A stretch of 64,000 nucleotides of DNA from Thermanaeromonas sp. (GTDB taxonomy: Bacteria > Bacillota > DSM-521 > Neomoorellales > Neomoorellaceae), in contig NZ_JAKKUR010000001.1 in NCBI RefSeq assembly GCF_021890735.1, forward strand, positions 41,792 to 105,791, read 5' to 3'. The translations under genes and the position numbers were made by a program. Shown in pieces: positions 54,268 to 57,310 of this stretch. Below the pieces are notes generated by a model. It was not told the origin of the DNA. It did no database searches and saw only the letters and a list, made by a program, of their open reading frames with translations. Position 1 is the first letter of the stretch. Every line of letters begins with the position of its first letter.

Positions 54268-54296
54268 ATTCTAACTTTCGTTATCCGTGCTGTCAA
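54268..54296 (-). promoter_or_regulatory. SigmaA promoter of the PerR-like/Crp operon
   Basis: On the minus strand a perfect TTGACA, a 17-nt spacer and TAGAAT (5/6) lie 54 nt before the ATG of the PerR-like gene. Confidence 0.82.
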
Positions 54297-54323: not shown

Positions 54324-54347
54324 AGAAAAAGCCCGGTCATCCCGGGC
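54324..54347 (-). terminator. Rho-independent terminator after the CaCA exchanger
   Basis: On the minus strand GCCCGG, a 5-nt loop and CCGGGC are followed by TTTTTCTTT. It lies 54 nt past the stop of the exchanger gene. Confidence 0.9.
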
Positions 54348-54400
54348 TGTACTATGCGCAAATATATAATTAAGGGAGAGCCGCCTCTGATTTCCGCTAC

Positions 54401-55405
54401 TTATCTTATAACTCCGGCAAAAACCAAGACTACAAATATCAGGTAAAATGCCCCACCGCCCATAAGGGTATACGGCGTTAAATGTTTCTTCCAGCGGATC
54501 TGCAGGTATACAGCCCCTGCTGAAAGAATGGCTAGAACCGCACTGATCATCGCACCAACAGTAAGGTCCCAACTGGTCATGGTTATTCCCAGTGCAGGCA
54601 GGAGGGAACTTTGGAAAACCATGGCCCCCGTAATGTTACCCAAAGCTAAGGTATCCTTCCCCCTACCTATCCAGATGATACTATTAAACTTCTCGGGAAG
54701 CTCTGTAGCTATCGGTGCTATGATGAGGGATAATACAAAGGCCGGTACACCTAACAGGTTAGATAAATGCTCCACGCCTCTGACAAAAATGCGCGCCCCT
54801 CCTATAATCAATCCCAGGGCTACTAAAACCTGAAATACGACCAACCCTAAGGCAGGGTCTTCGCTACGCCGCGCAAAATAAAGCGGGTGTAACTCCTCTT
54901 CTTCGTTATTGCCGCTTTCCCGGGTTACGGTAAGATAGGCGTAAACAAAGTAGGCTATGGCGAGGAAAATGGCTATTATCTGCTTCCATAGATGTGTTTT
55001 TAATAGGGCAGCCAGGATAGCTACAGCATAAACAAGCAAAAAGAAGGCCAGGTCCCGCCCCATGATCACTGTATTAATGCGCATGCGGGGAAAATCATGG
55101 CGCCTGCCCCGGTAGGCAATTACGGCGAGACCTACAATGAAAAAGGCTAAAGTACTAAGCATAAAAGGTGCTCCTAAAATAGCCCCGATACCTACCTCTT
55201 CTCCTACGTGACCGCCTCCAAACAGGATGGCTACCACCGGGATCATGCTCTCGGGGAGGGCAGTCCCCACGGCTGCAAGTATGCTGCCCACAGCTCCTTC
55301 ACCGAGGTTGAGTTTTTTGCCCAACCATTCCACACCATTAGTGAACACTTCTGCTCCGAGTAAGATGATTCCGAGGCTGATAACGAGCAAGACTATATCT
55401 GCCAT
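54401..55405 (-). CDS. CaCA-superfamily sodium/calcium-type cation exchanger
   Basis: This 334-residue membrane protein has about ten helices in two homologous halves. The alpha-repeat motifs are AAVGTALPESMIPVVAI near residue 45 and IIAPIATELPEKFNSI near residue 230, each with the conserved acidic residue. It exchanges cations across the membrane. The Mn2+ riboswitch in its leader suggests that manganese efflux is at least part of its job, though the family name is for calcium. It is a single-gene unit with its own terminator. Confidence 0.92.
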   Translation of the reverse strand: MADIVLLVISLGIILLGAEVFTNGVEWLGKKLNLGEGAVGSILAAVGTALPESMIPVVAILFGGGHVGEEVGIGAILGAPFMLSTLAFFIVGLAVIAYRGRRHDFPRMRINTVIMGRDLAFFLLVYAVAILAALLKTHLWKQIIAIFLAIAYFVYAYLTVTRESGNNEEEELHPLYFARRSEDPALGLVVFQVLVALGLIIGGARIFVRGVEHLSNLLGVPAFVLSLIIAPIATELPEKFNSIIWIGRGKDTLALGNITGAMVFQSSLLPALGITMTSWDLTVGAMISAVLAILSAGAVYLQIRWKKHLTPYTLMGGGAFYLIFVVLVFAGVIR

Positions 55406-55470: not shown

Positions 55471-55516
55471 AAAAAATTAAGAGACCTCCCCCCCCTAACT
55501 TGGGCGGTAAGGTCTC
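55471..55516 (-). terminator. Riboswitch-controlled terminator before the CaCA exchanger
   Basis: On the minus strand GAGACCT and AGGTCTC pair (inner GC-rich CCGCCC/GGGGGG also available) and are followed by TTAATTTTTT. The 5' arm overlaps the 3' end of the aptamer, so ligand binding would stop the terminator from forming. Confidence 0.85.
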
Positions 55517-55610
55517 GCCCTTATGTAAACCGGATCCGGGCCATATACGCCGTGCTGACGGATCCTGGTACCGGGTCGTTCTGTATGAGTCCCGGCGGCT
55601 ACTCCCCTTA
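55508..55610 (-). promoter_or_regulatory. yybP-ykoY Mn2+ riboswitch aptamer
   Basis: On the minus strand the 5' conserved block AAGGGGAGTAGC and the 3' block GGCGAGACCTTA are both present, with P1 pairing TAAGG/CCTTA and GC-rich helices between. These are the universally conserved loops of the Mn2+-sensing yybP-ykoY class. The layout (aptamer then terminator) predicts that manganese turns the exchanger on. Confidence 0.92.
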
Positions 55611-55702
55611 GAGCCCACACCATGTATGTTACTTGTTTTCAGCTCCTCTATGGAAGCTGTAGAGTATCCTCTGCCACCCTTACCGTGTGTGTTAGATGTC
55701 CC

Positions 55703-55740
55703 TTAGAGCACAATCTCCCAACCTATTTGTGCTACTCTAA
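55703..55740 (-). repeat. Inverted repeat at the 3' end of the Hdr-Flox operon
   Basis: TTAGAGCACAA pairs with TTGTGCT...CTAA across a 3-nt bulge and covers the stop codon of the PHP gene. There is no T-run, so it is a stabilising or weak terminator hairpin. The 55615-55700 stretch next to it shows nothing I can assign. Confidence 0.5.
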
Positions 55741-56487
55741 TGCTATAACTTCCCTTCTTCTCTCCCTAAAGGTCACAAGTTTGGTATAACCTATTCTTTT
55801 GAGTAGGCGAATGGCTTTCTCCCGGCTTCTACCCACCTCCTCCGGACTATGAGCATCCGAAGACACGGTTACCGGAATGTTAAGCTCAAAGCAGCGCTCC
55901 AACAGCTCCACCGAAGGGTATATTTCTCCCACCAGCTTGTACAATCCTGCAGTATTTACCTCCACTGCCACACCGGCCCGGGCGACAACCCTAAGGGCAG
56001 GCTCAGCCAGCTCCACCACAGGCCTTCGCGGCCTATGTCCGTATAACTTTATCAGATCTAAGTGCCCAATTATCTGGAAAAAACCGCTGGAAGCAGCCCG
56101 GGCAACCAGTTCAAAATAAACACTGTAAAGCTCGTCCATATCCCAATCAGCATAAAAGGCCTCTCCGCCCGGGCTGTCAAACCCCCAAGCCCCAATATCG
56201 TGAACAGAAGCGATAAGGTAATCCCAGGGGCGGGAGGCAACAGTCTCTAAATCACACCTGTCAGGCCGGAAGCTAACCTCCAGCCCCCTCTTTATTTCTA
56301 TAGGAGATAACCGGCGTAACTCTTCAAAAACCTTAAAATCCAGGCCGTAGAGGTATTCATCGTGCTCGGCAAAACCGAGTTCTCTCAAGCCCTGCTTTTG
56401 AGCCGCTTCAACATAAGGCCACAGCCGTTCTATCGTATGAGGCGGACCGATATGTCCCAAGCCATGGACATGCAGATCAGTACTCAT
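55732..56487 (-). CDS. PHP-domain phosphatase, HisJ/histidinol-phosphatase-like
   Basis: This 251-residue protein of the PHP metallo-hydrolase fold has the metal motifs DLHVHG at the N-terminus, EHD near residue 41, GLEVSFRPD near residue 68, IGHLDL near residue 140 and the C-terminal SSDAHSPEEV. Similar proteins are histidinol phosphatases, but no his genes are here. It overlaps the end of floxA by 11 nt and is the last gene of the redox operon, so its place there is unexplained. Confidence 0.85.
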   Translation of the reverse strand: MSTDLHVHGLGHIGPPHTIERLWPYVEAAQKQGLRELGFAEHDEYLYGLDFKVFEELRRLSPIEIKRGLEVSFRPDRCDLETVASRPWDYLIASVHDIGAWGFDSPGGEAFYADWDMDELYSVYFELVARAASSGFFQIIGHLDLIKLYGHRPRRPVVELAEPALRVVARAGVAVEVNTAGLYKLVGEIYPSVELLERCFELNIPVTVSSDAHSPEEVGRSREKAIRLLKRIGYTKLVTFRERRREVIALE

Positions 56488-57310
56488 TGGGCAACTCCTT
56501 AAGCTGCGCCAAAGTGAACACCGGGCCGTCCAGACATACGTATTTGCTTCCCAAGTTGCACCGCCCGCATTTTCCGATACCGCACTTCATGCGCATCTCC
56601 AGGGTGGTAACAATCTGGTCGTCTTTGAAGCCCAACTTCTCCAGTACCTGCAGGACAAACTTAATCATTATGGGCGGCCCGCAAGTTACCGCTACCCTGC
56701 CTTGAGGCGTAGGCTTAAGCTCCTCCACAAAGGCGGGAACAAAACCTTCGTGCCCGGTCCAGGTGTCGTCTCCTTTGTCTACTGTGACGTCTACACGGCA
56801 ATTCTCCACTTTAGGCCAGTTTTCAAAAAGATCCTTCTTAAAGCACAGGTCAGCCGGTGAGCGGGCCCCGTAGATGATCCACAAATGCCCAAATTTATCA
56901 CGGTGTTCAATACAGTAATTGATCAGGGAGCGTACCGGGGCCAGCCCTATACCGCCGCCGATGAAGAGAACGTCTTTACCGTAAAACATTTCCAGGGGGA
57001 ACCCGTTGCCATACGGACCCCGTATGCCAACGGTCTGGCCTACCTCAGCTTCATGAAAGGCCTCCGTCAGGGTGCCCACTTTTTTAATAGAAATCTCCAG
57101 GTGTTCAGGCCCCTGCGAAGTAATAGAAAACATGGCTTCTCCCACGTTTAATAATGATAACATAGCTAGCTGGCCAGGTAAAGGAGTAAATGGTTTACCT
57201 TGGTCGGTAGTTATATAAAAAGTCTTTATATCCGGCGTCTCCTCAACGATGTTTATGATCCGGCCGAGCTGCGGTACCAAAGGATTCCCGTTTCTAAAAC
57301 TTTCAGCCAT
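56477..57310 (-). CDS. floxA: FAD/NAD(P)-binding oxidoreductase subunit (FloxA / HydG-like)
   Basis: This 277-residue protein of the ferredoxin-NADP reductase fold has an FAD-binding beta barrel (residues 15-100, with RGPYGNGFPLE), an NAD(P)-binding Rossmann domain (FIGGGIGLAPVRSLINY) and a C-terminal [2Fe-2S] cluster motif CGIGKCGRCNLGSKYVC. It resembles the gamma subunit of sulfhydrogenases and FloxA of the FloxABCD-HdrABC complex. In this operon it would take electrons from NADH. It overlaps both neighbours. Confidence 0.9.
   Translation of the reverse strand: MAESFRNGNPLVPQLGRIINIVEETPDIKTFYITTDQGKPFTPLPGQLAMLSLLNVGEAMFSITSQGPEHLEISIKKVGTLTEAFHEAEVGQTVGIRGPYGNGFPLEMFYGKDVLFIGGGIGLAPVRSLINYCIEHRDKFGHLWIIYGARSPADLCFKKDLFENWPKVENCRVDVTVDKGDDTWTGHEGFVPAFVEELKPTPQGRVAVTCGPPIMIKFVLQVLEKLGFKDDQIVTTLEMRMKCGIGKCGRCNLGSKYVCLDGPVFTLAQLKELPNEY

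Follow-up and report, generated by a model that had tools for sequence, protein, structure and literature searches.

A probable yybP-ykoY-class riboswitch in the leader of a CaCA exchanger gene from Thermanaeromonas sp.

A CaCA-superfamily exchanger gene of Thermanaeromonas sp. very probably has a yybP-ykoY-class (Mn2+) riboswitch of the transcriptional ON type in its leader, and the gene product is most likely a Mn2+ exporter. The window, i.e. the whole 64,000-nucleotide stretch that was analysed, contains, at 55616-55472 of the minus strand and ahead of the exchanger gene, a complete yybP-ykoY aptamer plus a terminator. This reading builds on conserved blocks, fold, covariation, overlap of aptamer and terminator, gene identity and recurrence of the element before related exchangers, all of them observed in the analysis. 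The features are:

55502-55616, minus strand: possible outer P1 extension, GGGC (55616-55613) with GCCC (55505-55502), from pairing in the window
55606-55610, minus strand: P1.1 5' strand (UAAGG), pairs with 55508-55512; structure and covariation
55600-55605, minus strand: L1 5' strand GGAGUA of the GGGGAGUAGC block, invariant in alignment A4
55597-55599, minus strand: P1.2 5' strand, pairs with 55517-55519; structure and covariation
55571-55595, minus strand: P2 hairpin CCGGG...CCCGG; structure and covariation
55529-55569, minus strand: P3.1/L3/P3.2 arm, P3.1 with one bulged A (55566); structure and covariation
55552-55558, minus strand: L3 loop UCAGCAC, third base (55556) the counterpart of the invariant Mn2+-contacting adenosine (PMC6754395)
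55551-55539, minus strand: P3.2; structure
55508-55516, minus strand: L1 3' strand GAGA and P1.1 3' strand CCUUA, common to the terminator 5' arm
55472-55516, minus strand: intrinsic terminator, stem GAGACCT (55516-55510) with AGGTCTC (55487-55481), upper CC/GG and CCC/GGG, loop AAGTTA, tail TTAATTTTTT
54401-55405, minus strand: CaCA-superfamily (Na_Ca_ex) exchanger, 334 aa, 10 predicted TM helices; PF01699, AF2, Foldseek
54330-54348, minus strand: predicted terminator after the exchanger gene
54268-54296, minus strand: promoter-like site TTGACA-17-TAGAAT before a Fur-family gene, a consensus match only

All parts of the aptamer are present: P1.1, L1 (GGAGUA/GAGA), P1.2, P2, P3.1, L3 (UCAGCAC) and P3.2. 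The conserved blocks lie at 55607-55598 (GGGGAGTAGC) and 55516-55511 (GAGACC) on the minus strand, where the earlier note had placed them. With both strands searched, GGGGAGTAG occurred once in the 64 kb, as did a correctly spaced pair of L1 and GAGACC blocks. The GGGGAGUAGC block and the 3' GAGACC block are closed by P1.1 and P1.2, and the 7-nt L3, with adenosine at its third position, lies between P3.1 and P3.2. This adenosine is the A63 column, which is invariant in alignment A4. Its equivalents are found in the loops UCA41AUUC of L. lactis and ACA48UACU of X. oryzae, and the N7 of the adenosine contacts Mn2+ (PMC6754395). P4, which is variable in the class and not defining, was not found in the window aptamer structure, which leaves a three-way junction; a three-way-junction member has been reported (PMC9495176), so a four-way junction is not required. 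The outer P1 extension has GCGG/CCGC-like counterparts in Moorella leaders. The global MFE fold of the aptamer alone (z = -1.1) lacks P1.1 and is therefore uninformative.

The RF00080 match, whose absence the earlier note had named as a refutation, did not appear with Rfam 15, neither in the window at the gathering cut-off, nor with permissive filters over a 461-base stretch, nor in the whole genome, and the test proved insensitive. RF00080 scored above its cut-off in just 3 of 101 relative genomes, and its weaker matches there sit squarely before exchanger, UPF0016, TerC and P-type ATPase genes. RF00080 does pick up related exchanger leaders, at scores under the cut-off: 25.5 bits for that of Moorella mulderi, and 38.5 and 37.1 bits for those of two relatives further away. 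In the RF00080 consensus line the GGGGAGUAG block is unpaired and GAGACC has no partner, so that few of the defining features of the aptamer add to the score, and as most related leaders also fall under the cut-off it does not discriminate here. The absent match was rejected as a refutation, since relatives with the same element miss the cut-off too and an independent covariance model finds the site.

This model, R1, was trained on 15 leaders that RF00080 had picked out elsewhere, in other genomes. Those with an assigned gene precede UPF0016, TerC, P-type ATPase or LemA genes (L032, L039, L047 and L083 have none assigned). None is known to precede the exchanger family studied here; the UPF0016 gene of L034 has a distant CaCA gene further downstream. 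On the 64-kb window R1 matched 55503-55614 of the minus strand at 37.7 bits (E = 6.4e-9; next match E = 0.066), and across the whole genome nothing but the window site reached significance (E = 2.1e-7, followed by a match at 0.32). The site is thus recovered by a model trained on other members of the class. At L084 (1680-1773, minus strand) and at L085, a yybP-ykoY-type aptamer (RF00080 approximately 25 bits) stands directly before a gene that we take, by eye, to belong to the LemA family, an unusual target for the class.

The same element occurs upstream of approximately 30 related exchanger genes elsewhere. In the exchanger search set R1 matched 24 loci, the window included; out of 80 loci taken from GTDB species genomes it matched 18, of which five come from genomes already present in the first set. 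In L081 and L133 the switch does not stand immediately ahead of the exchanger gene: in L081 a UPF0016 gene comes first, and in L133 the match lies about 850 bases upstream. Most R1-matched leaders have a terminator with a T tract that begins at [GA]AGACC; no obvious terminator was seen at this motif in L015. Over the 24 leaders, 60 double-changed cells were counted, compared to 23.4 +/- 4.3 after shuffling (0/500), and no shuffle out of 500 reached the observed value on any of five measures. When the window-derived structure was laid on the R1-fitted alignment, 78.6% of the cells were paired and every slid version was worse. Helices P1, P2 and P3.1 all covary with the relatives, and P1.1 shows both-side changes in 3 of its 5 pairs. 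The structure of R1 (RNAalifold) has no P2 and lacks most of P3.1, keeping a fragment of the P3 arm only, so the covariation of P2 and P3.1 was not fitted to those helices. Our own parser gave a figure of 93% and adenosines in 37/37, both partly built in by its rules, which maximise P3.1 pairing and require CA in L3; the adenosine column is invariant in A4 without parser bias.

The overlap of the aptamer end with a terminator could be confirmed in the window, and the ON-switch logic of the earlier note is supported. The GAGACCT/AGGTCTC stem is followed by TTAATTTTTT, and the aptamer's 3' P1 strand doubles as the terminator 5' arm. When a longer stretch of leader is folded, the terminator state comes out as the MFE structure (-62.0 kcal/mol, z = -2.0). 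Hand-set structures of the two states are near-isoenergetic (-42.3 with the outer P1 vs. -44.4 for the terminator), which suits a switch but is no proof of one. At high cytosolic Mn2+ the ion would bridge L1 and L3, with adenosine 55556 as a soft ligand. Bridging would stabilise P1.1 (55610-55606 with 55512-55508), which would then hold the CCUUA strand needed by the terminator. At low Mn2+ this strand would join the GAGACCU/AGGUCUC terminator, and transcription would stop before the gene, whose product would most likely export Mn2+. The same exchange between P1.1 and terminator is described for the L. lactis switch (PMC11087558). We infer that the leader binds Mn2+, that antitermination takes place in vivo and that the exchanger transports Mn2+; both the Mn2+-induced antitermination and the export of Mn2+ are likely.

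That the downstream gene encodes a CaCA exchanger, as the earlier note had it, was borne out by Pfam (PF01699, Na_Ca_ex, E = 2.9e-25) and by an AF2 model (pLDDT 86), for which Foldseek returned the H+/Ca2+ exchanger CAX (4kpp, E = 2e-8, TM 0.78) and also NCX_Mj as the closest solved folds. The protein has two alpha-repeat (Na_Ca_ex) domains and about 10 TM helices in a CaCA fold. Its alpha-repeats are divergent (GTALPE and ATELPEKFNS), and GAPFML and GAMVFQ replace GSCICN and GSNIAD. The score against the Na+/Ca2+ antiporter (NCX type) equivalog TIGR00367 was 80.1 bits, below the cut-off of 179.65. The canonical ion ligands of NCX_Mj are not all kept, Ser being replaced by Ala/Glu and Asp by Gln at aligned positions; both membrane Glu are kept. 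Several of the Ser and Asp residues on which NCX relies are missing. Alpha-repeat sequence and fold cannot reveal the substrate of the exchanger.

In Bordetella pertussis the gene of the CaCA protein BP3410 is controlled by a yybP-ykoY riboswitch, the BprK leader; induction by Mn and export of Mn2+ have been measured for BP3410, and strains with functional BP3410 hold approximately 5-fold less cell Mn (PMC8546581). BP3410 resembles NCX_Mj (38.3% similarity reported, PMC8546581), whereas the alpha-repeats of the window exchanger are divergent. By analogy with this precedent Mn2+ export is a likely function, as the earlier note proposed, and the combination of a CaCA gene with a yybP-ykoY switch is already known in kind. 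The window riboswitch is genuine and probably functional, of a known and not a new kind. It shares with the L. lactis yoaB leader (RF00080 class) the L1 and L3 motifs, a P1.1 shared with an intrinsic terminator and the ON logic (PMC11087558, PMC6754395). In contrast to yoaB, which encodes a P-type ATPase, the window leader has no P4, falls below RF00080 detection and targets a CaCA exchanger.

The serious rival is Ca2+ as ligand or substrate: the same aptamer/terminator switch, with Ca2+ (or Ca2+ and Mn2+) as both signal and substrate of a calcium-homeostasis exchanger. We consider it rather unlikely. The three-way junction without P4 resembles that of the S. pneumoniae mgtA (CaxP) aptamer, which stands before a Mn2+/Ca2+ transporter and is reported to bind Ca2+ more tightly than Mn2+ (PMC9495176, PMC11434433), and the closest solved folds, CAX and NCX_Mj, point the same way. 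The mgtA transporter is a P-type ATPase, that of the window a secondary exchanger. Against the rival, Mn2+ is reported to be still the stronger activator of mgtA transcription (PMC9495176). The window L3 keeps the adenosine that contacts Mn2+ through its N7, leaders found by the same model elsewhere precede the Mn2+-linked families UPF0016 and TerC, and BP3410 shows that a CaCA protein is able to export Mn2+ (PMC8546581).

Some features of the leader count against a working Mn2+ switch. The tail TTAATTTTTT is interrupted, and no good promoter was found directly upstream; the Moorella leaders, unlike that of the window, have TTGACA...TATGAT. Together with the bulged P3.1 and the missing Rfam match, these would fit a degenerate riboswitch in which the fold persists and control of the gene is lost. 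With all core positions intact and the helices covarying, such decay is improbable, and in the same-genus copy L002 (90% identical protein) the terminator arm is kept with full pairing and a TTATTTTTT tail. A plain attenuator or a chance resemblance, as the lack of an RF00080 match might suggest, is hardly credible given the R1 matches in window, genome and relatives, the L3 adenosine and the covariation, RF00080 being a poor judge of this part because the GGGGAGUAG and GAGACC blocks are not partners in its Rfam 15 consensus.

The earlier note had also drawn a local metal-stress theme from a PerR-like neighbour, and this found no support. The Fur-family gene lies behind the predicted terminator and its own promoter-like site. 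It matches the FUR Pfam family and scores 117.4 bits against the 200 of the PerR equivalog NF047406. Neither the same-genus relative nor Moorella has it next to the exchanger, and relatives usually lack it at this place; a PerR link was rejected as not conserved. Conserved upstream of the exchanger, with or without a switch, is a pair of PHP and AsrB-like genes: a PHP-domain phosphatase (55732-56487) and an AsrB-like flavoprotein (56477-57310, both minus strand) lie directly upstream in Moorellaceae and other families. A hairpin (TTAGAG-GCACAA / TTGTGC-TCTAA, 55740-55703, minus strand) without a T tract spans the end of the PHP gene, and the sequence of its 3' part (GCTCTAAGGG) recurs where the aptamer starts (55614-55605).

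Many exchanger orthologues, some of them 60-69% identical, have no riboswitch, which counts against the Mn2+-exporter reading and means that the family as a whole is not bound to Mn2+ control. A tree was made of 119 exchangers, of which 33 have a switch, by a quick method and with many open forks; on it the switch label must change at least 11 times, 4 of the changes being forced by well-supported branches. Paralogues with and without a switch coexist in some genomes. Mn2+ control has thus been gained or lost repeatedly in this family. Also counting against this reading, the genome encodes an MntP homologue (G000:C129:12700-13179, L171; 118.8 bits) at which R1 detected no yybP-ykoY switch; two Mn2+ exporters may therefore coexist under different control. 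More tentatively, the divergent GTALPE / ATELPEKFNS clade, having repeatedly gained and lost yybP-ykoY control, might consist, where that control is present, of Mn2+ exporters with a non-NCX ion site, or else the three-way-junction aptamers might form a Ca2+-tuned subclass; we regard this as possible and would not count on it.

The interest of the finding lies in the target gene of the switch and in a blind spot of Rfam. RF00080 is built without the P1 pairing, and most of the leaders analysed here escape it or receive too low a score. As the Rfam 15 model misses many real members, the number of Mn2+ switches known upstream of CaCA genes is probably too low, and a rebuilt model would find many more. 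For the organism, the exchanger gene is probably switched on in manganese (possibly calcium) excess, and a likely metal signal can be assigned to an exchanger family annotated as calcium/sodium antiporter in Moorella relatives and other Bacillota.
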